NCBI RefSeq assembly: GCF_014137995.1
Contig: NZ_JACGWV010000001.1
Span: 434,001 to 498,000 of the forward strand
Direction of reading: 5' to 3'
Origin: Promicromonospora sukumoe
GTDB lineage: Bacteria; Actinomycetota; Actinomycetes; Actinomycetales; Cellulomonadaceae
Length of the DNA: 64,000 bases
Positions 7,401 through 60,649 of the stretch are shown here, in pieces (the stretch's first letter is position 1; each line of letters starts with the position of its first letter). A program made the translations under genes and the position numbers. The notes below the pieces were generated by a model. It searched no databases, was not told where the DNA came from, and worked only from the letters and a program-made list of their open reading frames with translations.

Positions 7401-7446
7401 CGTGTCAGACACACAGGTCCCTTGGGTGATCTGTGTGTCTGACACG
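7401..7446. repeat. palindrome family B, copy 1
   Basis: Perfect 16-bp arms CGTGTCAGACACACAG (7401-7416) and its complement (7431-7446) around a 14-nt centre that can pair partly. It shares the outer GTGTCAGAC...GTCTGACAC with copies at 20280 and 60605. It lies between the divergent nucleotidyltransferase and tex genes, so it is not a simple end-of-gene terminator. Confidence 0.85.
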
Positions 7447-7552: not shown

Positions 7553-9973
7553 TTGGCAAGCATCAACCAGCGCATCGCTGAGGAGCTGGGCGTTCGCGAA
7601 GGGCAGGTGACCGCGGCGGTCGACCTGCTCGACGGCGGCGCGACCGTGCCGTTCATCGCCCGCTACCGCAAGGAGGTGACCGGCACCCTCGACGACGCGC
7701 AGCTGCGCACCCTCGAGGAGCGGCTGCGGTACCTGCGCGAGCTCGAGGAGCGGCGCGCGGCGATCCTGGCGTCGGTGCAGGAGCAGGGCAAGCTCACGGA
7801 CGAGCTGCGCGCCCAGATCCTGGCGGCGGAGACGAAGTCGCGTCTGGAGGACATCTACCTCCCGTACAAGCCCAAGCGGCGCACCAAGGCGCAGATCGCG
7901 CGCGAGGCCGGCCTGGAGCCGCTCGCCGACGCGCTGATCGGCGACCCGTCGCTCGACCCGACGACGACGGCCGGCCCGTACGTCGACGCCGACAAGGGCG
8001 TGGCCGACCCGGCCGCGGCCCTCGACGGCGCCCGCGCGATCCTCGTGGAGCGCATGGGCGAGGACGCCGACCTGATCGGCACGCTGCGCGAGCGGCTGTG
8101 GAAGCGCGGGCGCATGCTGTCCGCCGTCCGCGACGGGGCGCAGGACAAGGGCGCCAAGTTCTCGGACTACTTCGAGTTCGCCGAAGCCCTGTCCAGCCTG
8201 CCGTCCCACCGGGTCCTCGCCCTCTTCCGCGGGGAGAAGGAGGACGTGCTGGACCTCACGATCGAGCCGGAGGAGGGCATCGAGCAGGGCGTGCCGACGT
8301 CGTACGAGGGCACGATCGCGCACCAGTTCGACATCGCCAACCAGGGTCGTCCGGGTGACCGGTGGCTCAACGACACGGTCCGCTGGGCCTGGCGCACCAA
8401 GATCCTGGTGCACCTCGGCATCGACGTGCGGCTGCGGCTGCGCTCCGAGGCGGAGGACGAGGCCGTGCGCGTCTTCGCCGCCAACCTGCGCGACCTGCTG
8501 CTCGCGGCGCCCGCGGGGACGCGGGCCACGATGGGGCTCGACCCGGGCCTGCGCACGGGCGTCAAGGTCGCCGTCGTCGACGCCACGGGCAAGGTCGTGG
8601 AGCACGCGACCATCTACCCGCACCAGCCCGCCAACCGCTGGGACGAGTCGCTGGCCGTGCTGGCCCGGCTGGCCCAGAAGCACAACGTGGACCTGGTGGC
8701 GATCGGCAACGGGACGGCATCGCGCGAGACCGAGCGGCTGGCCGCCGACCTCATGAAGAAGGTGCCGGACCTCGGCCTGACCAAGGCCGTCGTGTCCGAG
8801 GCGGGCGCGTCCGTGTACTCGGCGTCCGCCTACGCGAGCGCGGAGCTGCCCGACCTGGACGTGTCCATCCGTGGCGCCGTCTCGATCGCGCGCCGCCTGC
8901 AGGACCCGCTCGCCGAGCTCGTGAAGATCGACCCCAAATCGATCGGCGTGGGCCAGTACCAGCACGACATCACCGAGACCAAGCTGTCGCGGTCGCTGGA
9001 CGCCGTCGTGGAGGACTGCGTGAACGGCGTCGGCGTGGACCTGAACACCGCGTCGGTGCCGCTGCTGTCCCGCGTCTCCGGCATCACCTCGACGCTGGCC
9101 GAGAACATCGTGGCGCACCGGGACGCCAACGGGCCGTACGCGTCGCGGGCGTCGCTCAAGAACGTGCCGCGCCTGGGCCCCAAGGCGTTCGAGCAGTGCG
9201 CGGGCTTCCTCAAGGTGTCGGGCGGCGCCGAGCCGCTGGACGCGTCGTCGGTGCACCCCGAGGCGTACCCGCTGGCGCGGCGCATCGTGACGGCGTCGGG
9301 CGCGGACGTGCAGGCGCTCATCGGCAACGGCGGCGCCCTGCGCACGCTGAAGCCCACGCAGTTCGTGGACGAGACGTTCGGTCTGCCGACCGTGACCGAC
9401 ATCTTCGCCGAGCTGGAGAAGCCGGGCCGCGACCCGCGTCCGGCGTTCACCACGGCGTCCTTCGCGGACGGCGTCGAGACCCTCGGCGACCTGGTGCCCG
9501 GCATGGTGCTGGAGGGTCAGGTCACCAACGTCGCGGCGTTCGGCGCGTTCGTCGACGTCGGCGTGCACCAGGACGGGCTCGTGCACGTCTCGGCGATGTC
9601 CAAGAACTTCGTCAGCGACCCGCGCGAGGTCGTGAAGTCGGGCGACATCGTCAAGGTGAAGGTGATGGACGTCGACCTGCAGCGCAAGCGGGTCTCGCTG
9701 ACCCTGCGCCTGGACGACGAGATCGGCGTGGCCCCCGGTGGCCGCACGTCGGGCGGCGGGCGTTCCGGCGGGTCGGGTGGCTCCGGGTCCGGCGGCGAGG
9801 GCGGTGGCCAGCGCGGCGGTCGCCCGGGTGGCGACGGTCGCGGCCGGGGCGGTCAGGGCCGAGGCCATGGCGGTCAGGGCCAGCGCGGCCAGGGCGGACA
9901 GGGCGGCCGCGGCCGCCCGGCCCCGGCAGACACGGCCATGGCGGACGCCCTCCGCCGAGCGGGCCTGGCCTGA
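7553..9973 (+). CDS. tex: Tex RNA-binding transcription accessory protein
   Basis: 806-aa Tex/Spt6-like protein. In order: helical Tex N-terminal domain (1-190), a YqgF RNase-H-like fold starting [18 protein letters not shown] near 325, helix-hairpin-helix region (about 500-570: [20 protein letters not shown]), an S1 RNA-binding domain (about 650-720: [20 protein letters not shown]) and a Gly/Arg-rich tail of about 75 residues with RGG-like repeats that may bind RNA. The start is TTG at 7553; the in-frame GTG at 7538 runs into a stop, and the product begins as other Tex proteins do ([11 protein letters not shown]). GAGGT lies about 11 nt upstream. The tail is longer than in E. coli Tex. Confidence 0.97.
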
Positions 9974-10008: not shown

Positions 10009-10070
10009 GGTTGAACGTAGGGTTGGTCGCTGCAAGAGGCGTGATGCGGCGACCAACCCTACGTTCGACC
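10009..10070. repeat. palindrome family C, copy 1 (intergenic)
   Basis: 22-bp arms (10009-10030 and 10049-10070) with a single G-T mismatch and an 18-nt loop. The arm core GAACGTAGGGTTGGTCGC is shared in pattern with the copy inside the ABC ATPase gene at 41155. It sits between tex and the tandem TetR gene. Confidence 0.85.
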
Positions 10071-10149: not shown

Positions 10150-11925
10150 GTGAGCACCAAAGCAGAGGTCACGCCGCGACGGCGTCGGCGCCAGGAGCTG
10201 ATGAGCACCTCGATCGCCACGGCGCGTCGCCTCCTCGCCGACGGCGGCGTCGAGAGCGTGACGATGCTGGCGGTCAGCCGGGAGGTCGGCATCGCCGGGC
10301 CCGCGCTCTACCGCTACTTCCCGAGCCGCGCCGACCTGCTGCGCGCGACGCACCGGGACGTGCTCGACGAGCTGGTGGCCCACGTCCGCGCCGCGACGAC
10401 CCGCCAGCCGGCCGGCGACCGCGCCGCCGCGCTGCAGGCGCTGACCTACGCCATGTTCGGGTGGTGCGTGGCGCACCCCCGGGAGTTCGACCTGCTGCTC
10501 GGCGGCGACCTGCGCCTGGCCGAGGCGGACGCCCCGGTGGGCGACGAGGGCGGCAACGGCACGTTCTACGAGGTGGCGGCCCTGACGTTCACGGCGCTCG
10601 CCGGGCAGTGGGCCGACGGCGCGGCCCGCTTCGACGAGCCCGTCCGCCCGGAGCTGGCGCCCGAGCTGGCCGCGCGGCGCGACGTGCTGCTCGCCGCGTA
10701 CCCGGACGTTCCCCCGGGCGCGCCGCTCGGGCTGCTCGCCGCCGGCCGCGTGGCCTGGCAGCGCACCTTCGGCCTGCTGTGCATGACGGTGTACGGCCAC
10801 ATCACCGAACCCGACGGGCCGGTCCGGCGCGGCTACATCACCGCCCTGCTGGACGACCTGACCGCGCGCAACCTCGCGCTCTTCGGCCTGGGCGTCAGCG
10901 CCGCCGCCGTCGTCGACCCGGTCTTCGCGTCCGGTCCCGGGACCGGTGGGCCCGACGCCGGTAGGCCCGATGCTGGAGTGCCCGACGCCGGTGCACCCGC
11001 TGCCGGGACGCCCGCGCACGGTCCGGGTCCGGCGCAGGCGGGCCTGACCGGCGTCGGCCGAGCGGAGACGCGGGAGGGCGCATACCCGGCGGCCGCGCAC
11101 CCCGCGGGCCCGCACCCCGCGGACGGGGAGTCGCCGAGCGCCACGGGCCGCCGCGCCCGCCTGCGCCGCGCGCTGCTGGAGGAGTCGCTGGCCTCGGCCC
11201 GCCGCCTGCTGGACGAGCACGGCGCGGACGGCGTCACGATGCAGGCCGTCGCGAAGGACGTCGGGATCGCGGCGCCGGGGCTCTACCGCTACTTCGACGG
11301 CCGGCCGGGCCTGCTGCACGCCACCCACCAGGACGTCGTCGACGAGCTGCTGGCCGCCGTCGAGGACGCCAGGTCGCGCCAGCCCGCGGACGACCCGAGC
11401 GCGCAGTGCCACGCCGTCGTGCACGCGACGTTCCGCTGGTGCCTCGCCCACCGCAACGAGTACGACCTGCTGATGTCGGGCCGGCTGCGCATCTCCCGCC
11501 CGGGCGTCGCGGCGGCCGAGGAGTCCCACGGGTCCGGCCCCGCACCGCTGATGGCGCTGGAGCGCGTCGGCGCCGTGTTCGCGCCGATCGCCCTGGCCTG
11601 GTGGCGGGCGGGCTGCCGCGTGATCCCCGACGACGAGCTCCCGCCCGCGCTCGTGCCCCACCTGCGGGCGGCGCGGAAGGCGATGCTCGGCATCCCGGAC
11701 TTCCCGCCGGACGTGCCGCTCGGTCTGCTGCACGCGATGAACCTGTGCTCGGCTCGGCACTGGGGCCTGCTCACGCTGACGGTCTACGGCCACGTGGGCG
11801 ATGTCGGCGCGCCCGAGGCCGCGGCGCGCCTCGACGCCCTGGTGCTCGACCTCATGGCGGACGTCCACGAGATCTTCGACCGACCGGTCTCGCCCGACGT
11901 CGTGCTCGTACGAGACATCTCGTGA
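10150..11925 (+). CDS. tandem TetR-family regulator (two complete repressors fused)
   Basis: 591-aa protein containing two complete TetR units. Unit 1 (about 12-255) has an HTH ending GIAGPALYRYFPSRADLLRATH; unit 2 (about 335-585) has GIAAPGLYRYFDGRPGLLHATH. The ligand domains also match each other (AMFGWCVAHPREFDLL / ATFRWCLAHRNEYDLL; FGLLCMTVYGHI / WGLLTLTVYGHV), so the protein arose by internal duplication. The linker (about 258-330) is Gly/Pro/Asp/Ala-rich with PDAG repeats. A TetR dimer normally has two HTHs; this chain could bind as an intramolecular pseudo-dimer or tetramer. The GTG at 10150 lacks a strong ribosome site; an internal ATG at 10201 would clip helix 1. The likely target is its own promoter or the downstream flavin reductase. 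Confidence 0.88.
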   Translation: MSTKAEVTPRRRRRQELMSTSIATARRLLADGGVESVTMLAVSREVGIAGPALYRYFPSRADLLRATHRDVLDELVAHVRAATTRQPAGDRAAALQALTYAMFGWCVAHPREFDLLLGGDLRLAEADAPVGDEGGNGTFYEVAALTFTALAGQWADGAARFDEPVRPELAPELAARRDVLLAAYPDVPPGAPLGLLAAGRVAWQRTFGLLCMTVYGHITEPDGPVRRGYITALLDDLTARNLALFGLGVSAAAVVDPVFASGPGTGGPDAGRPDAGVPDAGAPAAGTPAHGPGPAQAGLTGVGRAETREGAYPAAAHPAGPHPADGESPSATGRRARLRRALLEESLASARRLLDEHGADGVTMQAVAKDVGIAAPGLYRYFDGRPGLLHATHQDVVDELLAAVEDARSRQPADDPSAQCHAVVHATFRWCLAHRNEYDLLMSGRLRISRPGVAAAEESHGSGPAPLMALERVGAVFAPIALAWWRAGCRVIPDDELPPALVPHLRAARKAMLGIPDFPPDVPLGLLHAMNLCSARHWGLLTLTVYGHVGDVGAPEAAARLDALVLDLMADVHEIFDRPVSPDVVLVRDIS

Positions 11926-13671: not shown

Positions 13672-13733
13672 CTTCGAGACCTAAGTTTCTTCGCTTTGAG
13701 CAGGCTCAAAGCGAAGAAACTTAGGTCTCGAAG
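13672..13733. repeat. palindrome family A, copy 1
   Basis: Perfect 30-bp arms (13672-13701, 13704-13733) with a 2-nt centre. The arm contains TTCGAGACCTAAGTTTCTTC. It lies between two convergent genes and can act as a hairpin in either direction; there is no T run. Confidence 0.9.
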
Positions 13734-20279: not shown

Positions 20280-20333
20280 CGCACGTGTCAGACGTACAGG
20301 TCACCCGAGTGACCTGTACGTCTGACACGTGCG
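20280..20333. repeat. palindrome family B, copy 2
   Basis: Perfect 25-bp arms (20280-20304, 20309-20333) with a 4-nt CCGA loop. The arm contains CACGTGTCAGACGTACAGG. It lies between the divergent small gene (20128) and the ArsR gene (20390). Confidence 0.88.
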
Positions 20334-22447: not shown

Positions 22448-22517
22448 TCTCCTTCGAGACCTAAGTTTCTTCGCTTTGAGGAGCTCGAAAGCGAAGAAAC
22501 TTAGGTCTCGAAGGAGA
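22448..22517. repeat. palindrome family A, copy 2
   Basis: 30-bp perfect arms (22448-22477 and 22488-22517) around a 10-nt centre. Same core as copy 1 (TTCGAGACCTAAGTTTCTTC). It lies between the convergent MFS and FHA genes. Confidence 0.9.
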
Positions 22518-40221: not shown

Positions 40222-41999
40222 GTGTGGTGACGCCTGGTCCCGTGGGGGAGCCCGTGCTGGACGTGCGGGATCTTGTCGTGTCGTTCGGCGGGCGGCGGGT
40301 CGTCGACGGCGTGAGCCTCCAGGTCGCGGCGGGCGAGTGCGTGGCGATCGTCGGCGAGTCCGGCTCGGGCAAGAGCGTGACCGCGCGCAGCGTCGTCGGC
40401 CTGGCGGGGGACGGGGCGCGGGTCTCGGCCGGGCTGTTGTCGGTCGCGGGGCAGGACGTGCTGTCCCTGTCCGGGCGGCGCCTGCGCCGGCTGCGCGGCG
40501 GCACCGTCGGGCTCATCGCGCAGGACGCCCTGGTCTCGCTCGACCCGCTGCGCCCCGTCGGCCGGGAGATCGGCGACACGCTCGCCCTGCACACCGACCT
40601 CGACGCCGCCGCGCGCCGCGTCCGCACCGTCGAGCTCCTGGAACGGGTCGGCCTGCCCGACGCCGAGCTCCGGGCCGGTCAGCGACCCGGCCAGCTCTCG
40701 GGCGGGCAGCGGCAGCGTGCCCTGATCGCCGCCGGCATCGCGGCCGACCCGCGGCTCGTCATCGCCGACGAGCCCACCACCGCGCTCGACCAGCCCGTCC
40801 AGGCCGGAGTGCTCCGGCTGCTGGGGCAGCTGCGCGACGAGGGCACCGGCGTGCTGCTCATCAGCCACGACCTGTCGGTGGTGCTCGGTATTGCCGACCG
40901 GTTGCTCGTGATGACCGACGGCGTCGTCGTCGAGGAGGGCACGCCCGCCGAGGTGTTCGAGCGCCCCCGGCACCCGTACACGCGCAAGCTGGTCGCCGCG
41001 GTGCCGGCGGGCCGGCCGCGGGGGGAGTCGCTGACCGGGGGTGCGGGTGCCGGTGCGGCGCCGGTGGGCGCTGTCGGCGATGCCGCGTCGTCGCCCGGGG
41101 GCGCCGCCGCGCCGTCGTCGGCCCCCGCCGTCGTCGCGCCGTCGGCCGCGGGTAGTGAACGTAGAGATAGTCGCTCTCTGAGCGCCGATAAAGCGACTGT
41201 CTCTACGTTCGATCTGACCGACGCCGACGGCGACGCACAGGGCGTGCTGGTCGAGGCGCGGGGGCTGTCGCGGGTGTTTCATGTCGGCGGGCGGGAGATC
41301 GTCGCCGCCGACGACGTGTCGTTCTCCCTGCGGGCGGGCCGCACCCTAGGGCTGGTCGGGGAGTCGGGGTCGGGCAAGTCGACCACCGCGCGGCTCCTGC
41401 TCGGCCTGGAGCATCCCGACGCCGGCGAGGTCACGCTGCTCGGCGAGCCGTGGAGCCCGCTCCCCGAGGCCCGACGGCGGCCGCGCCGCTCGCTGATCGG
41501 CGCGGTGTTCCAGGACGCCCTCAGCTCGTTCGACCCGCGCTGGACGGTCGGCGCCGTCCTCGCCGACGCCGTCACCCACGGCCGGTCGGTCCGGCCCGGA
41601 CCCGTGCGCGCGGAGATCTCGGCGCTCCTCGACACCGTGGGCCTCGACCCGGCGCTCGCCGCCCGCCGACCCCTGCACCTGTCGGGCGGGCAGCGGCAGC
41701 GCGTCGCCGTCGCACGGGCACTCGCCGCCGAGCCCCGGGTGCTGGTCCTCGACGAGCCGGTCTCGGCGCTCGACGTCTCGGTCCAGGCCCAGGTGCTCGA
41801 CCTGCTTGACCGGCTCCAGCGGGAACGCGACCTCGCATACCTGCTGATCACGCACGACCTCGGCGTCGCGCTGCACATGAGCGACGACCTCGCCGTCATG
41901 CAGGAAGGCCGCATCGTCGAGCAGGGCCCGGCGTCGAGCGTCTTCGACGACCCGGAGCACCCCTACGCCCGGCTGCTCCGCGACGCCGTCCGGATCTAG
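40218..41999 (+). CDS. fused peptide ABC transporter ATPase (DppD-DppF)
   Basis: 593-aa protein with two ATPase domains. Domain 1 (about 12-280): GESGSGKSVTARS, LSGGQRQRALIA, LVIADEPTTALD. Domain 2 (about 345-590): GESGSGKSTTARLLLG, LSGGQRQRVAVARA, VLVLDEPVSALD. Each ends in the oligopeptide-type motif (HPYTRKLVAAVP; HPYARLLRDAV). Fusion of DppD and DppF replaces the usual two genes. The linker (about 283-345) is Ala/Gly/Ser-rich, except residues 313-332, which are encoded by a family C palindrome. The GTG start overlaps the DppC stop; AGGAG lies about 7 nt upstream. Confidence 0.93.
   Translation: MSVVTPGPVGEPVLDVRDLVVSFGGRRVVDGVSLQVAAGECVAIVGESGSGKSVTARSVVGLAGDGARVSAGLLSVAGQDVLSLSGRRLRRLRGGTVGLIAQDALVSLDPLRPVGREIGDTLALHTDLDAAARRVRTVELLERVGLPDAELRAGQRPGQLSGGQRQRALIAAGIAADPRLVIADEPTTALDQPVQAGVLRLLGQLRDEGTGVLLISHDLSVVLGIADRLLVMTDGVVVEEGTPAEVFERPRHPYTRKLVAAVPAGRPRGESLTGGAGAGAAPVGAVGDAASSPGGAAAPSSAPAVVAPSAAGSERRDSRSLSADKATVSTFDLTDADGDAQGVLVEARGLSRVFHVGGREIVAADDVSFSLRAGRTLGLVGESGSGKSTTARLLLGLEHPDAGEVTLLGEPWSPLPEARRRPRRSLIGAVFQDALSSFDPRWTVGAVLADAVTHGRSVRPGPVRAEISALLDTVGLDPALAARRPLHLSGGQRQRVAVARALAAEPRVLVLDEPVSALDVSVQAQVLDLLDRLQRERDLAYLLITHDLGVALHMSDDLAVMQEGRIVEQGPASSVFDDPEHPYARLLRDAVRI
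41155..41213. repeat. palindrome family C, copy 2 (inside the ABC ATPase gene)
   Basis: 19-bp arms GAACGTAGAGATAGTCGCT (41157-41175) and 41192-41210 with one mismatch and a 16-nt loop. Visibly lower in G+C than the flanking linker. It is read in frame as about 20 residues (GSERRDSRSLSADKATVSTF), with no stop or frameshift. Same arm pattern as the intergenic copy at 10009. Confidence 0.85.
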
Positions 42000-42639: not shown

Positions 42640-42673
42640 CGCCGGGCCCCCGCCAAACGTCGTCGGCCGCATT

Positions 42674-42741
42674 CCCCTTCGAGACCTAGGTTTCTTCGCT
42701 TTCAGCCACCGGAAAGCGAAGAAACCTAGGTCTCGAAGGGG
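42674..42741. repeat. palindrome family A, copy 3
   Basis: Perfect 30-bp arms (42674-42703, 42712-42741), 8-nt centre. Here the core reads CCTAGG in both arms, where copies 1, 2 and 4 read CCTAAG/CTTAGG, a paired change. Lies between convergent genes. Confidence 0.9.
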
Positions 42742-42756
42742 ACCCGCAGAGGCGGG

Positions 42757-53856: not shown

Positions 53857-53920
53857 CTTTCGAGACCTAAGTTTCTTCGCTCTGGAGCCCTCCAGAGCGA
53901 AGAAACTTAGGTCTCGAAGG
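53857..53920. repeat. palindrome family A, copy 4
   Basis: 29-bp perfect arms (53859-53887, 53890-53918), 2-nt centre. The tip reads CTCTGGAG/CTCCAGAG where copy 1 has CTTTGAGC/GCTCAAAG, again with both arms changed together. The only copy lying between genes that run in the same direction. Confidence 0.9.
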
Positions 53921-56022: not shown

Positions 56023-58209
56023 ATGACCGAGAAGCCCGACGACGGAGCGGTGCCCGGCGGCTCGAACGCGGGCGCGAGTCCCTGGCAGGCCGCCGGACGG
56101 CCCGCCGAGCCGGTGACGTCCGCGGAGCCGGCGACGTCCGGCGATCCTGCGGAGCCGGGGCAACCGACCGAACCGGCGGCCCCGGCCCAGCCCGCCGCCG
56201 TCGGCGCCGGGTCGCCCGCCCCGGCGTCCGCCGAGCCCGGGTCCACGACGCCCGCGGACCCCGACGGCGAGTCCGGCCTGACCGATGCCCTCGAGGTGCT
56301 TCGCGCCCGGCTCGGCGCCCTGCGCCTGCCCCTGGAGACCGCGGGCGTCGAGGCGGCGCGCACCGAGCAGCGTCGCGCCACGGACCAGCTCGACGACTAC
56401 CTGCTGCCGCGGCTGCGCGCCCAGAAGGCGCCGCTGCTCGTCGTGGTCGGCGGGTCCACGGGCGCGGGCAAGTCGACCCTGGTCAACTCCGTCCTGGGCG
56501 AGAAGGTGACGCAGCCGGGCGTGCTGCGGCCCACCACCAAGGCGCCGGTCCTCGTGCACCACCCGCTGGACGCCCGGTGGTTCTCCACGGACCGGGTGCT
56601 GCCGGGCCTGGCGCGCGTGACGGCGTCGGGCAACGGGTCGCCGCTCCGGTCGGCGGTGGGGCCGGCCGCCGTGACGCAGGGCCACGGCACGCCGTCCGAA
56701 CCCTCCCGCACGCTGCGGCTCGTGCCGAGCGACGCGCTGCCGAAGGGCCTGGCGCTGCTGGACGCACCGGACATCGACTCGGTCGACACCGCCAACCGCG
56801 AGCTCGCCGCGCAGCTCCTCGGGGCGGCCGACCTCTGGCTGTTCGTCACCACGTCGGCGCGGTACGCCGACGCCGTCCCGTGGGACCTGCTGAACCAGGC
56901 CGCCGCCCGCAAGGCGCAGGTGGCGATGGTGCTGGACCGCGTGGACCCGGGCGCCGAGGCCACGGCCGACGACCTGCGGGACATGATGGCCGAGCACGGC
57001 CTGCCCGACAGCCCGCTGTTCGTCATCCCGGAGGGCGAGCTCTCCGGCGAGGGCCTGCTGCCCGAGGGCGCCGTCGGCGACGTCTCGCGCTGGCTCACCG
57101 GGCTGGGCGGCGACGCCGACGCCCGGCGCCGCGTCATCGCCGCCACGCGCGACGGCGTGGTGGACTCCCTCGTGGTCCGCGCCGACGAGCTGGCCGACGC
57201 CGCCGACGAGCAGCAGGCCGCCGACGTCCGGCTGCGGCACGTCGTGGACCGCGCCTACGCGGACGCGGTCGCCCACGTGACGGCGGCGACGTCGGACGGC
57301 GCGCTGCTGCGCGGCGAGGTGCTCGCCCGCTGGCAGGACTTCGTGGGCACGGGCGAGTTCTACCGGGCGGTCGAGGAGAACATCGGCCGGTTCCGCGACG
57401 CGGTGGGGTCGTTCTTCCGGGGCAAGCCCAAGGAGGCGCCGCAGGTCGAGAAGGCGATCGCCCACGGGCTGGAGTCGGTGGTGCTGGACGCCGCCGAGGA
57501 GGCCGCCGAGCGCTCCTACCAGGGCTGGCGGGGCGACGCCGCGGGCGCGGCGCTGCTGGAGGGCCTGGAGCTGTCGCGGACGCCGGCGGCGCTGCGCGCC
57601 GAGGTGGGCGAGCAGATCCGGGGCTGGCAGGGCGACGTCCTGGCGCTGGTGCGCGAGCAGGGCGAGTCCAAGCGGGGCCGGGCGCGCGCGCTGTCCTTCG
57701 GCGTCAACGGCCTGGGCGCGGCGCTGATGATCTTCGTGTTCGCCTCGACGGGTGGGCTGACCGGCATCGAGGTCGGCATCGCGGGCGGTTCCGCCGTGCT
57801 CGCGCAGCGGCTGCTGGAGGCCGTGTTCGGCGAGGACGCCGTGCGCGGGCTCGCCACGCAGGCTCGCGACCGGCTGCGGGCCCGCATCCAGACGGTCATG
57901 GACGGGCAGGCGGCGCGCTACACCGCCCAGCTCGACGCGCTCGGCTCCGCGGAGGCCGGCGGTTCCGGCCTGCGGACGGCGGCCGCCGGTGTCGCCTCGG
58001 CGGCGTCGGCCGAGCGCCGCGTGCGGTCCCGTGCGGACGCCGTTCCCGGCGACGGCGCGTCCGCCGCGGACCTGCTGGAGAGCCGCGGGCTGCGCGGCGT
58101 CCGGGCCGGGACGGACGACGGGCGTCCGGCGGGCGGCCACGACACCGCGGCCGAGGAACCGGCCCGGAAGGGCTTCTGGAAGCGCCTGTTCGGGGACGGC
58201 GAGCGATGA
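56023..58209 (+). CDS. dynamin-like GTPase A2 (second pair)
   Basis: 728-aa paralogue of A1. An 85-residue Pro/Ala/Glu low-complexity N-terminus is followed by G1 VVGGSTGAGKSTLVNSVLG (141-159), G2-like RPTTKAP, G3 LLDAPDIDS (245-253), LWLFVTTSARYADAVPW, and a weak G4 (VLDRVD). A helical second half contains a hydrophobic hairpin (about 560-600: GLGAALMIFVFAS; GIAGGSAVLAQRL), then a Ser/Arg-rich tail ending ARKGFWKRLFGDGER, an amphipathic membrane-binding-like end. It overlaps gene B2 by 4 nt. About 170 residues longer than A1, mostly at the termini. Confidence 0.85.
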   Translation: MTEKPDDGAVPGGSNAGASPWQAAGRPAEPVTSAEPATSGDPAEPGQPTEPAAPAQPAAVGAGSPAPASAEPGSTTPADPDGESGLTDALEVLRARLGALRLPLETAGVEAARTEQRRATDQLDDYLLPRLRAQKAPLLVVVGGSTGAGKSTLVNSVLGEKVTQPGVLRPTTKAPVLVHHPLDARWFSTDRVLPGLARVTASGNGSPLRSAVGPAAVTQGHGTPSEPSRTLRLVPSDALPKGLALLDAPDIDSVDTANRELAAQLLGAADLWLFVTTSARYADAVPWDLLNQAAARKAQVAMVLDRVDPGAEATADDLRDMMAEHGLPDSPLFVIPEGELSGEGLLPEGAVGDVSRWLTGLGGDADARRRVIAATRDGVVDSLVVRADELADAADEQQAADVRLRHVVDRAYADAVAHVTAATSDGALLRGEVLARWQDFVGTGEFYRAVEENIGRFRDAVGSFFRGKPKEAPQVEKAIAHGLESVVLDAAEEAAERSYQGWRGDAAGAALLEGLELSRTPAALRAEVGEQIRGWQGDVLALVREQGESKRGRARALSFGVNGLGAALMIFVFASTGGLTGIEVGIAGGSAVLAQRLLEAVFGEDAVRGLATQARDRLRARIQTVMDGQAARYTAQLDALGSAEAGGSGLRTAAAGVASAASAERRVRSRADAVPGDGASAADLLESRGLRGVRAGTDDGRPAGGHDTAAEEPARKGFWKRLFGDGER

Positions 58210-60041
58210 GCCGGCTCGACCTGGCCGGCCGCACCGCGGCCCTCGACACCGCCGTCCAGGCCGCCGAGGGCCGCATCGAGCCCGCGCTCCTGGAGGAGGC
58301 GCGCGCCGTCGTGACCCGGGCGCGCGAGCGCGGCGGGCTGTCCGCGGAGCACACCGTCGTGGCGCTGGCCGGGGCCACCGGCTCGGGCAAGTCGTCGGTG
58401 CTGAACGCGGTGGCGGGCGTCGCGATCGCGCAGCCCGGCGTGCGGCGTCCGACGACGTCGCACCCGATGGCCGCCGTCTGGGGCGACGGCGCGGACCCCC
58501 TGCTGGACTGGCTGGAGGTGGGCCGCCGGCACCACGTGGGCGCGGTGGACGAGCCGGGCGCGCCGGTCGAGCCGAACCCGCCGGTCGAGCCTGTCGAGAC
58601 CCCCCGGGACGGTACGGGGGTCTCGACAAGCTCGACCAGCGGCGCGGCCCAGACCAGCGCCGGCGGCGGCGGCCCGTTCCGTCGTCGGACGCCCGCCGGG
58701 GACACCACCGGGCTGGTGCTGCTGGACCTGCCCGACCACGACTCCGTCGTCACCGAGCACCGGATGCGCGCCGAGCGCCTGGTGCAGCGCGCCGACCTGC
58801 TGGTCTGGGTCGTGGACCCGCAGAAGTACGCGGACGCCGCGCTGCACGAGGGCTTCCTGCGGCCGCTCGCGGGCCGTGCCGAGGTGGTGGTCGTGGCGCT
58901 CAACCAGGCCGATCGCCTCACGCCCGACGAGACCTCCGCGATGCTCTCCGACCTCCGGCGGCTGGTGGCCGAGGACGGCCTGGACGGCGCGCGGGTCCTG
59001 GCCGTGTCCGCCAAGACGGGGCAGGGCATGGACGACCTGCGCGGGCTGCTGGCCAATGCCGCGGCCCGGCGGGAGGCCGCGACGGCCCGGCTCGCCGCGG
59101 ACGAGCGGGTCGTGGCCCGGCGGATCGTCGACGAGTGCGGCACGCCGCCGCCGTCGCGCGCGGGAAGCCAGGCGCGGGGCGACCTGGTGGCCGCGCTGGA
59201 GGACGCCGCGGGCGTGCCCACGGTGGTCGAGGCCGTCCGCGGCTCGGCGCGCCGGGACGCGCGGGCGGCGACCGGCTGGCCGCTGACCCGGTGGATCGGG
59301 CGGCTGCGCAAGGACCCGCTGCGGCGGCTCGGGCTGCGGACGGCGGACCGGGAGCACCGTGCGCCGTCGGGCCGCGAGGACCTGGTGCGCACGTCCTTGC
59401 CGACGGCGCGGCCCGCGGTGCGGTCCACCGCGGCGTCGGCCGTGCGGCGCTACGTCGAGGACGTGACGCGCGGCGTCGCCGACCCGTGGGTCCTGGCCGC
59501 GCGCTCGCGCGGGCAGGCGGGCATCGACACCCTGCCGGACGCCCTCGACCAGGCGGTGGCCGCGACGCGCGTCGAGGCGGCGCGCCGTCCCGTGTGGTGG
59601 TCGCTGGTCAACGTGGTGCAGTGGGCGCTGGTCGCCGTGCTCGCGGCGGGCCTGCTGTGGCTGTTCGTGCTGTTCGGGTTCACGTACCTGCAGCTCCCGC
59701 CGCTGCCGACGCCGGTGCTGACCCTGCCGGTCTGGTCGGGCGACGGCGTCGTGTTCCCCGGGGCGCCGGAGTCCGGCTCGGGCGAGGGCCTCGGCGTCGA
59801 CCCCTTCACCATCCCGTGGCCCACCCTGATGGTGCTCGGCTCGGTGGTGCTCGGCCTGCTCGTCGCCCTGGTCTGCCGGGTGTTCGGCGCGCTGGGCGCG
59901 CGGCGCCGGGCGCGCGCGGCACGACGCCGGCTGCGGCAGTCGGTCGGCGCCGTCGCCGACCGGCTGGTGCGGGAGCCCGTGGGGGAGGAGCTGACCCGGC
60001 TCGCGAGCTGCCGGACGGCGGCGGTGGTCGCCGCGAGCTGA
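58206..60041 (+). CDS. dynamin-like GTPase B2 with C-terminal membrane hairpin
   Basis: 611-aa paralogue of B1. G1 LAGATGSGKSSVLNAVA (54-70), G2-like RPTTSH, G3 LLDLPDHDSV (172-181), WVVDPQKYADAALH and G4 LNQAD. Two helices (about 463-485 and 535-560) are separated by a longer outside loop than in B1. Compared with B1 there is an insertion of about 45 residues (118-165) between G2 and G3; residues 126-144 are encoded by a family D palindrome (58583-58637). The start overlaps the A2 stop (ATGA). Confidence 0.85.
   Translation: MSRLDLAGRTAALDTAVQAAEGRIEPALLEEARAVVTRARERGGLSAEHTVVALAGATGSGKSSVLNAVAGVAIAQPGVRRPTTSHPMAAVWGDGADPLLDWLEVGRRHHVGAVDEPGAPVEPNPPVEPVETPRDGTGVSTSSTSGAAQTSAGGGGPFRRRTPAGDTTGLVLLDLPDHDSVVTEHRMRAERLVQRADLLVWVVDPQKYADAALHEGFLRPLAGRAEVVVVALNQADRLTPDETSAMLSDLRRLVAEDGLDGARVLAVSAKTGQGMDDLRGLLANAAARREAATARLAADERVVARRIVDECGTPPPSRAGSQARGDLVAALEDAAGVPTVVEAVRGSARRDARAATGWPLTRWIGRLRKDPLRRLGLRTADREHRAPSGREDLVRTSLPTARPAVRSTAASAVRRYVEDVTRGVADPWVLAARSRGQAGIDTLPDALDQAVAATRVEAARRPVWWSLVNVVQWALVAVLAAGLLWLFVLFGFTYLQLPPLPTPVLTLPVWSGDGVVFPGAPESGSGEGLGVDPFTIPWPTLMVLGSVVLGLLVALVCRVFGALGARRRARAARRRLRQSVGAVADRLVREPVGEELTRLASCRTAAVVAAS
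58583..58637. repeat. palindrome family D (inside the GTPase B2 gene)
   Basis: 22-bp arms (58583-58604, 58616-58637) with one G-T pair. The core GTCGAGACCCCC / GGGGGTCTCGAC is a repeat type dispersed in actinobacterial genomes. It is read in frame as PVEPVETPRDGTGVSTSST, with no stop. Confidence 0.85.
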
Positions 60042-60604: not shown

Positions 60605-60649
60605 CGTGTCAGACCTACAGGTCCCCGGGGGACCTGTAGGTCTGACACG
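60605..60649. repeat. palindrome family B, copy 3
   Basis: Perfect 22-bp arms (60605-60626, 60628-60649), with CGTGTCAGACCTACAGG in the arm. It begins 3 nt after the thioesterase stop and ends 80 nt before the next start. Confidence 0.88.

Follow-up and report, generated by a model that had tools for sequence, protein, structure and literature searches.

A palindrome lies in frame inside an ABC ATPase gene of Promicromonospora and belongs to a family of copies, here called family C, that is dispersed, of fixed length (56 nt) and confined to the genus; the account we regard as quite probable is that of a non-autonomous palindrome which has a hairpin role at transcript ends and is tolerated in protein loops as about 20 extra residues. 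The window, that is, the whole analysed stretch of 64,000 nt, corresponds to C1:434001–498000 of the 6.5-Mb genome of the source strain (G000); the features discussed are collected in Table 1.

Table 1. Family C features of the window (positions are those of the window) and the five genes carrying family C copies in frame
Feature	Position	Strand	Remarks
Intergenic family C copy	10012–10067	.	38 nt past the stop of 7553–9973, before 10150–11925; genes in tandem
Host gene: two-domain dipeptide/oligopeptide-type ABC ATPase, DppD–DppF-like fusion, 593 aa	40218–41999	+	PF00005 (two stretches), PF08352, NF008453 (430.8 bits, cut-off 408)
Inter-domain linker holding the ABC palindrome, residues 277–338	41046–41231	+	pLDDT <50 (AlphaFold)
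Family C palindrome core, 56 nt, in frame	41156–41211	.	0 mismatches at the 26 specified pattern positions
Left arm, GAACGTAGAGATAGTCGC	41157–41174	+	family consensus: outer end GAACGTAGG, inner GTCGC
Right arm, GCGACTGTCTCTACGTTC	41193–41210	+	
In-gene site 1: ABC ATPase linker			ERR...PTF frame
In-gene site 2: TilS			TIGR02432, PF09179; ERR...PTF frame
In-gene site 3: M20 amidohydrolase			NF006770 (363 bits against a cut-off of 372); NV...LRS frame
In-gene site 4: luciferase-like oxidoreductase			TIGR03558; ERR...PTF frame
In-gene site 5: heparinase-like protein			resembles solved heparinases (8r75, E 4.7e-57); ERR...PTF frame

The first-pass annotation had placed a palindrome at 41155–41213, in frame within the ABC ATPase gene, and had credited it with adding about 20 residues to the inter-domain linker, with a G+C content below that of its surroundings and with membership in the same family as an intergenic copy; all of this was borne out. 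Translation of the 593-residue frame shows that 41154–41213 encodes residues 313–332, SERRDSRSLSADKATVSTFD (S ERRDSRSLSADKATVSTF D), without a stop. At 41155–41213 the G+C content drops to 50.8%, the 300-nt flanks having 78% and 76% and the whole gene 75.6%; 9 of the 1,723 overlapping 59-nt segments of the gene are equally low, the palindrome's own included. The arm geometry equals that of the intergenic copy, whose upstream and downstream neighbours are, by our reading, Tex-like and TetR-like, respectively. In the AlphaFold model of the ATPase (38 sequences) the palindrome falls within the low-confidence stretch listed in Table 1, that is, the copy sits in a linker predicted to be disordered.

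Family C was searched for with the pattern GAACGTAG-N5-GTCGC-N18-GCGAC-N5-CTACGTTC, allowing at most 3 mismatches over 26 fixed positions. In the source genome this gave 22 matches, the reversed control giving 0, which puts the palindrome far outside what chance would produce; among 13 Promicromonospora genomes it gave 190 copies in 11, again with 0 in the reversed control, and the copy number per genome ranges from 0 (G001 and G007) to 53 (G010). The same pattern returned no copy from 208 genomes that represent 24 further genera of the bacterial family; such searches fix the length, so that family C copies of other length would escape them. A search of the source genome for single arms, with free spacing and at most 1 mismatch, found 24 places, all of which pair into one 56-nt geometry, Y-GAACGTAGG-N4-GTCGC-N9, then the centre, then the complement. 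The consensus extends weakly past the 56 nt (C at 85%, two bases out), to about 60 nt overall. Copies may also stand close together: in G010 six of them form an array with a spacing of about 133 nt (C10:375617–376334, L282), further clusters lie at C3:128126–130128 and C11:1011305–1011760 of the same genome, and at four loci (L248, L184, L215 and L203) right-arm half copies directly adjoin full copies.

Twelve congeners have a readable ABC gene at this position, G009 being left out of the count for an N gap at the element. Eight of them carry the element and two, G001 and G012, are without any trace of it; the genes of G011 and G007 appear, by our reading, to keep remnants. None of 33 non-Promicromonospora orthologues in the alignment has the element by a peptide-pattern check. 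The case that all orthologues hold the same residues, which the first-pass annotation had named as speaking against an insertion, was thus not encountered; of its expectation for the alignment, absence from some orthologues was found, whereas absence at exactly the same point was not, as the linker of this gene varies too much for an empty site to be defined to the base. By this distribution the ABC copy is old, not young. That the stretch is ordinary ancestral linker, palindromic by chance, would agree with its being common to most of the genus; this idea was set aside on account of the family geometry, with its reversed control of 0, and of its absence from every outgroup orthologue examined, and since the identical peptide frame recurs in three other unrelated genes as well, we give it practically no credence.

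Altogether, 23 of the 188 copies retrieved for context analysis (the two absent ones are both from G010) are in-frame copies within genes and fall at five sites unrelated to one another; 22 were assigned by the frame model and one, the TilS copy of G012, on recheck. Three of the 22 copies of the source genome are among those inside genes. The context labels stem from the frame model, and at least two copies were mislabelled by it, L211 and the window copy at 10012, which was called divergent and is truly tandem. In-frame retention is possible because two of the three frames of the family C consensus are open, the third containing TAG, because either strand of the palindrome reads much the same, and because a length of 60 nt makes whole codons. 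The best-scoring profile stretches of the TilS, M20 and luciferase-like proteins begin behind the element or end before it; for the heparinase-like protein, neither Pfam nor NCBIfam gave a match at E 1e-5.

At each of the four further genes the element is present in some congeners and absent from others. TilS, a tRNA-modifying enzyme that is essential in many bacteria, has it in 3 of 12 aligned congeners and a remnant in G002, the remaining 8 having none, with the same conserved residues on either side. In the heparinase-like gene it is found in 3 of 11 aligned rows and is absent from 8; in the luciferase-like gene in 3 of 8, with a more decayed copy in G009 and absence from 4; in the M20 gene in 5 of 12 (G010 with two copies), with a remnant in G000 and absence from 6. 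The outgroups covered the ABC gene alone, so at these four genes presence is a presumed gain, as opposed to a condition retained from the ancestor. A tree built from four proteins of 12 congeners contains inner branches with support of 31–44, for which reason no count of gains and losses is given. Base-exact empty sites were not found among the automatic junction alignments, which were poor, nor among seven pairs re-examined. Clear empty sites between genes exist in G004 (compared with G012; missing block of about 130 nt) and in G006 (compared with G009 and G010; about 100 nt relative to G009); these blocks exceed 60 nt, which makes a deletion in the empty genome possible.

The loop of the M20 protein looks like a hot spot. 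Read from the DNA, it contains in G011, G007, G002 and G001 a palindromic motif other than family C (CGACTGCAGACTT / AAGTCTGCAGTCG), likewise in frame (L321 from 1398 in G011, L316, L314 and L315); a stricter scan of the loop finds paired arms of the CGACTGCAGACTT motif in G011 only. Other palindromes occur in the window itself. Family A, with the core CGAGACCTAAGTTTCTTCGC, is seen at 13672–13733, 22448–22517, 42673–42742 and 53859–53918, and 17 of 17 distinct copies in the stretches examined have 56 nt between the core ends, which is the length of family C. Family B (CGTGTCAGAC..ACAGGTC; 7401–7446, 20280–20333 and 60605–60649) has 45–46 nt between core ends. A further palindrome, TGTCGAGACCCCC..GGGGGTCTCGACA, lies at 58592–58628, in frame inside 56577–60041 (GTPase-like by reading), where it encodes VEPVETPRDGTGVSTSSTSG, ahead of the motif LVLLDLPDHDS.

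Outside genes the palindrome is maintained as a hairpin. Positions 11, 12 and 14 pair there in 66, 70 and 77% of copies, where independent columns would give 38, 32 and 37%; these positions vary freely, with 4 pair types each, and yet pairing is kept, while pairs 13 and 25–28 show little or no excess above independence. With the largest cluster (32 copies) excluded, double changes that still pair make up 164 of 1,485 cells at 33 orthologous intergenic sites, compared with 19 of 660 at 4 purely in-gene sites. The mean folding energy is −38.3 kcal/mol for the 164 copies outside genes and −25.9 kcal/mol for the 23 in-gene copies (one copy is unclassified). Pairing at positions 11–14 amounts to 72% outside genes versus 35% inside, and at positions 1–9 to 96% versus 98%; in-gene pairs 19–28 are paired at 46%. 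The pairing difference was assessed by site (5 in-gene versus 66 other sites; p = 0.007), because copies at orthologous sites are related. At one intergenic site of G004 (L353, on C23), orthologous to G012 C30:175745, the outer ends have been lost and the inner hairpin is perfect, with paired changes, GTCGC being replaced by GTCTC and the facing arm altered to match; a family A palindrome is found near this hairpin. As to location, 60 of 76 copies between tandem genes are closer to the 3′ end of the upstream gene, and convergent sites outnumber divergent ones 31:8.

The paired changes might also result from correction of one arm by the other during replication (quasi-palindrome repair), without any function of the hairpin. 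Some copies are indeed perfectly symmetric right to the centre, and the strand test for an effect at the RNA level, which compared G-T with A-C mismatches on the transcribed strand, was borderline (103:80; p = 0.052), with no clear excess of G-U over A-C. However, arm correction should operate in genes too, and there the inner pairing is low; we therefore take this origin of the changes to be rather unlikely.

It could furthermore be argued that a protein recognises the element as its DNA site, be it for chromosome organisation, for recombination or for an unidentified recombinase, and that its ends, GAACGTAGG/CCTACGTTC, are selected at fixed spacing as DNA, in genes too, the peptide being a by-product. 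Within the element, 5 residues are fully conserved among the eight pattern-matching ABC orthologues, and 4 of them are written with a single codon in all eight (GAA, CGT, ACG and TTC), rare codons being among these; outside the element GAA makes up 19 of the 209 codons for Glu, and CGT occurs 20 times versus 395 for CGG and CGC. Of 366 conserved degenerate codons in the rest of the gene, 146 have an invariant third base, and the remaining linker cannot be aligned. The near-complete pairing of the outer positions inside genes, where the inner ones pair in fewer than half of the cases, and the equal length of family A, which is unrelated in sequence, point in the same direction. The codon retention is, however, partly ascertained, because the pattern itself demands most of the outer bases, the eight orthologues being those that match it, and because both excluded remnants have altered ends (one base in G011, several in G007). 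Moreover, two congeners are without the family by pattern, and the G004 site mentioned above retains the hairpin without the ends. Such a DNA site is, to our judgement, improbable, and equally so its broader form, according to which fixed-length 56-nt sites of several unrelated sequences would spread without RAYTs and keep their outer ends as DNA in genes, a DNA-level function would have repeatedly written one 20-residue peptide into unrelated proteins, and hot spots such as the M20 loop would take up different families in different species.

How the copies have spread was approached from several sides. A Y1 transposase (RAYT, Y1_Tnp) is encoded in none of the 13 Promicromonospora genomes, while 5 of 14 control genomes were positive, and a RAYT-driven REP/REPIN system was rejected on this ground. 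Target duplication is not above control, direct repeats of 2, 3 and 4 nt flanking 21, 2 and 1 of 187 copies, compared with 16, 2 and 1 when flanks were exchanged; a parent element with separated arms was not found in the source genome at up to 1 mismatch. On these three grounds active mobility can be no more than presumed. Phage and plasmid collections gave no match to the intergenic copy, taken as 62 nt, at E ≤0.1, and an Rfam scan of the window returned no more than two tRNAs at gathering scores. A minimal MITE, in which a pair of 28-nt terminal inverted repeats directly abut and which is moved in trans by a lost or unfound transposase, is conceivable: the inverted-repeat structure, the dispersal with unequal copy number and the clusters of G010 suit it, but the lack of target duplication above control and of separated arms in the source genome does not, and we hold it to be a possibility well short of even chances.

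The best-known palindrome insertions in frame are those of Rickettsia (Rickettsia palindromic elements, RPEs) and of certain other bacteria. The RPEs measure about 150 bp, and nearly half of them lie in ORFs (PMC10969869). Like the RPEs, family C shows palindromic repeats in frame in unrelated genes, here five, with a recurring peptide, and several palindrome families in one genus (PMC10969869); unlike them it is 56–60 nt long, has 23 of 188 copies in genes and belongs to another phylum and another range of G+C, a distinction that is drawn from the description of RPEs. The parallel that the first-pass annotation drew with in-frame elements of Rickettsia, transferred to a high-G+C actinobacterium, holds, four further genes having copies of this sort; by length the element is not an RPE.

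REPs are 20–40 bp long, carry a tag at one end and, in the GTAG type, are linked to RAYTs; most of them lie close to the 3′ ends of genes, where neighbouring genes converge or run in one direction, and some are in ORFs, including those of RNA-modification genes (PMC3733652). Family C resembles them in its location near gene 3′ ends, but it is a symmetric 56-nt structure, has no one-end GTAG/CGTC tag, since GTAG is part of a paired arm (positions 6–9) and has its complement in the opposite one, and is accompanied by no RAYT gene in the 13 genomes. The word “Actinobacteria” is absent from the main text of that paper (PMC3733652). With MITEs such as ERIC and QMITE2, the latter found primarily in 3′ untranslated regions of Coxiella, the element shares its shortness, non-autonomy, terminal inverted repeats and hairpin transcripts (PMC10969869); it differs in being shorter, without an internal region, without target-site duplication above control and with no parent transposon found in the source genome. 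Family C works in the manner of RPEs and of intragenic REPs, but as some of the features tested (length, one-sided tag, RAYT, target duplication) fail for each, it is classed with neither; it belongs to the general kind of palindromic elements in protein genes. None of the papers among the literature matches listed deals with this element in Promicromonospora or with palindromes inserted in frame in genes of Actinobacteria.

The reading we prefer, that of a non-autonomous palindrome acting as a hairpin at the ends of transcripts, would then work as follows. Most copies are located between genes near gene 3′ ends, where a strong hairpin would form in the RNA, possibly serving as a terminator or at the mRNA end. 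Copies would spread in a transposition-like manner, and occasionally one would land in a gene, where a loop or a disordered linker may allow its retention as about 20 residues. The inner part of an in-gene hairpin would subsequently weaken, since a strong hairpin presumably hinders expression, and selection would thus act against it within genes.

Protein genes enlarged by palindromic elements have a counterpart here in a high-G+C actinobacterium, in which congeners differ by presence or absence at five sites in genes, TilS among them. The hairpin maintained outside genes and weak inside them constitutes a natural contrast, by which the function of the hairpin becomes testable.
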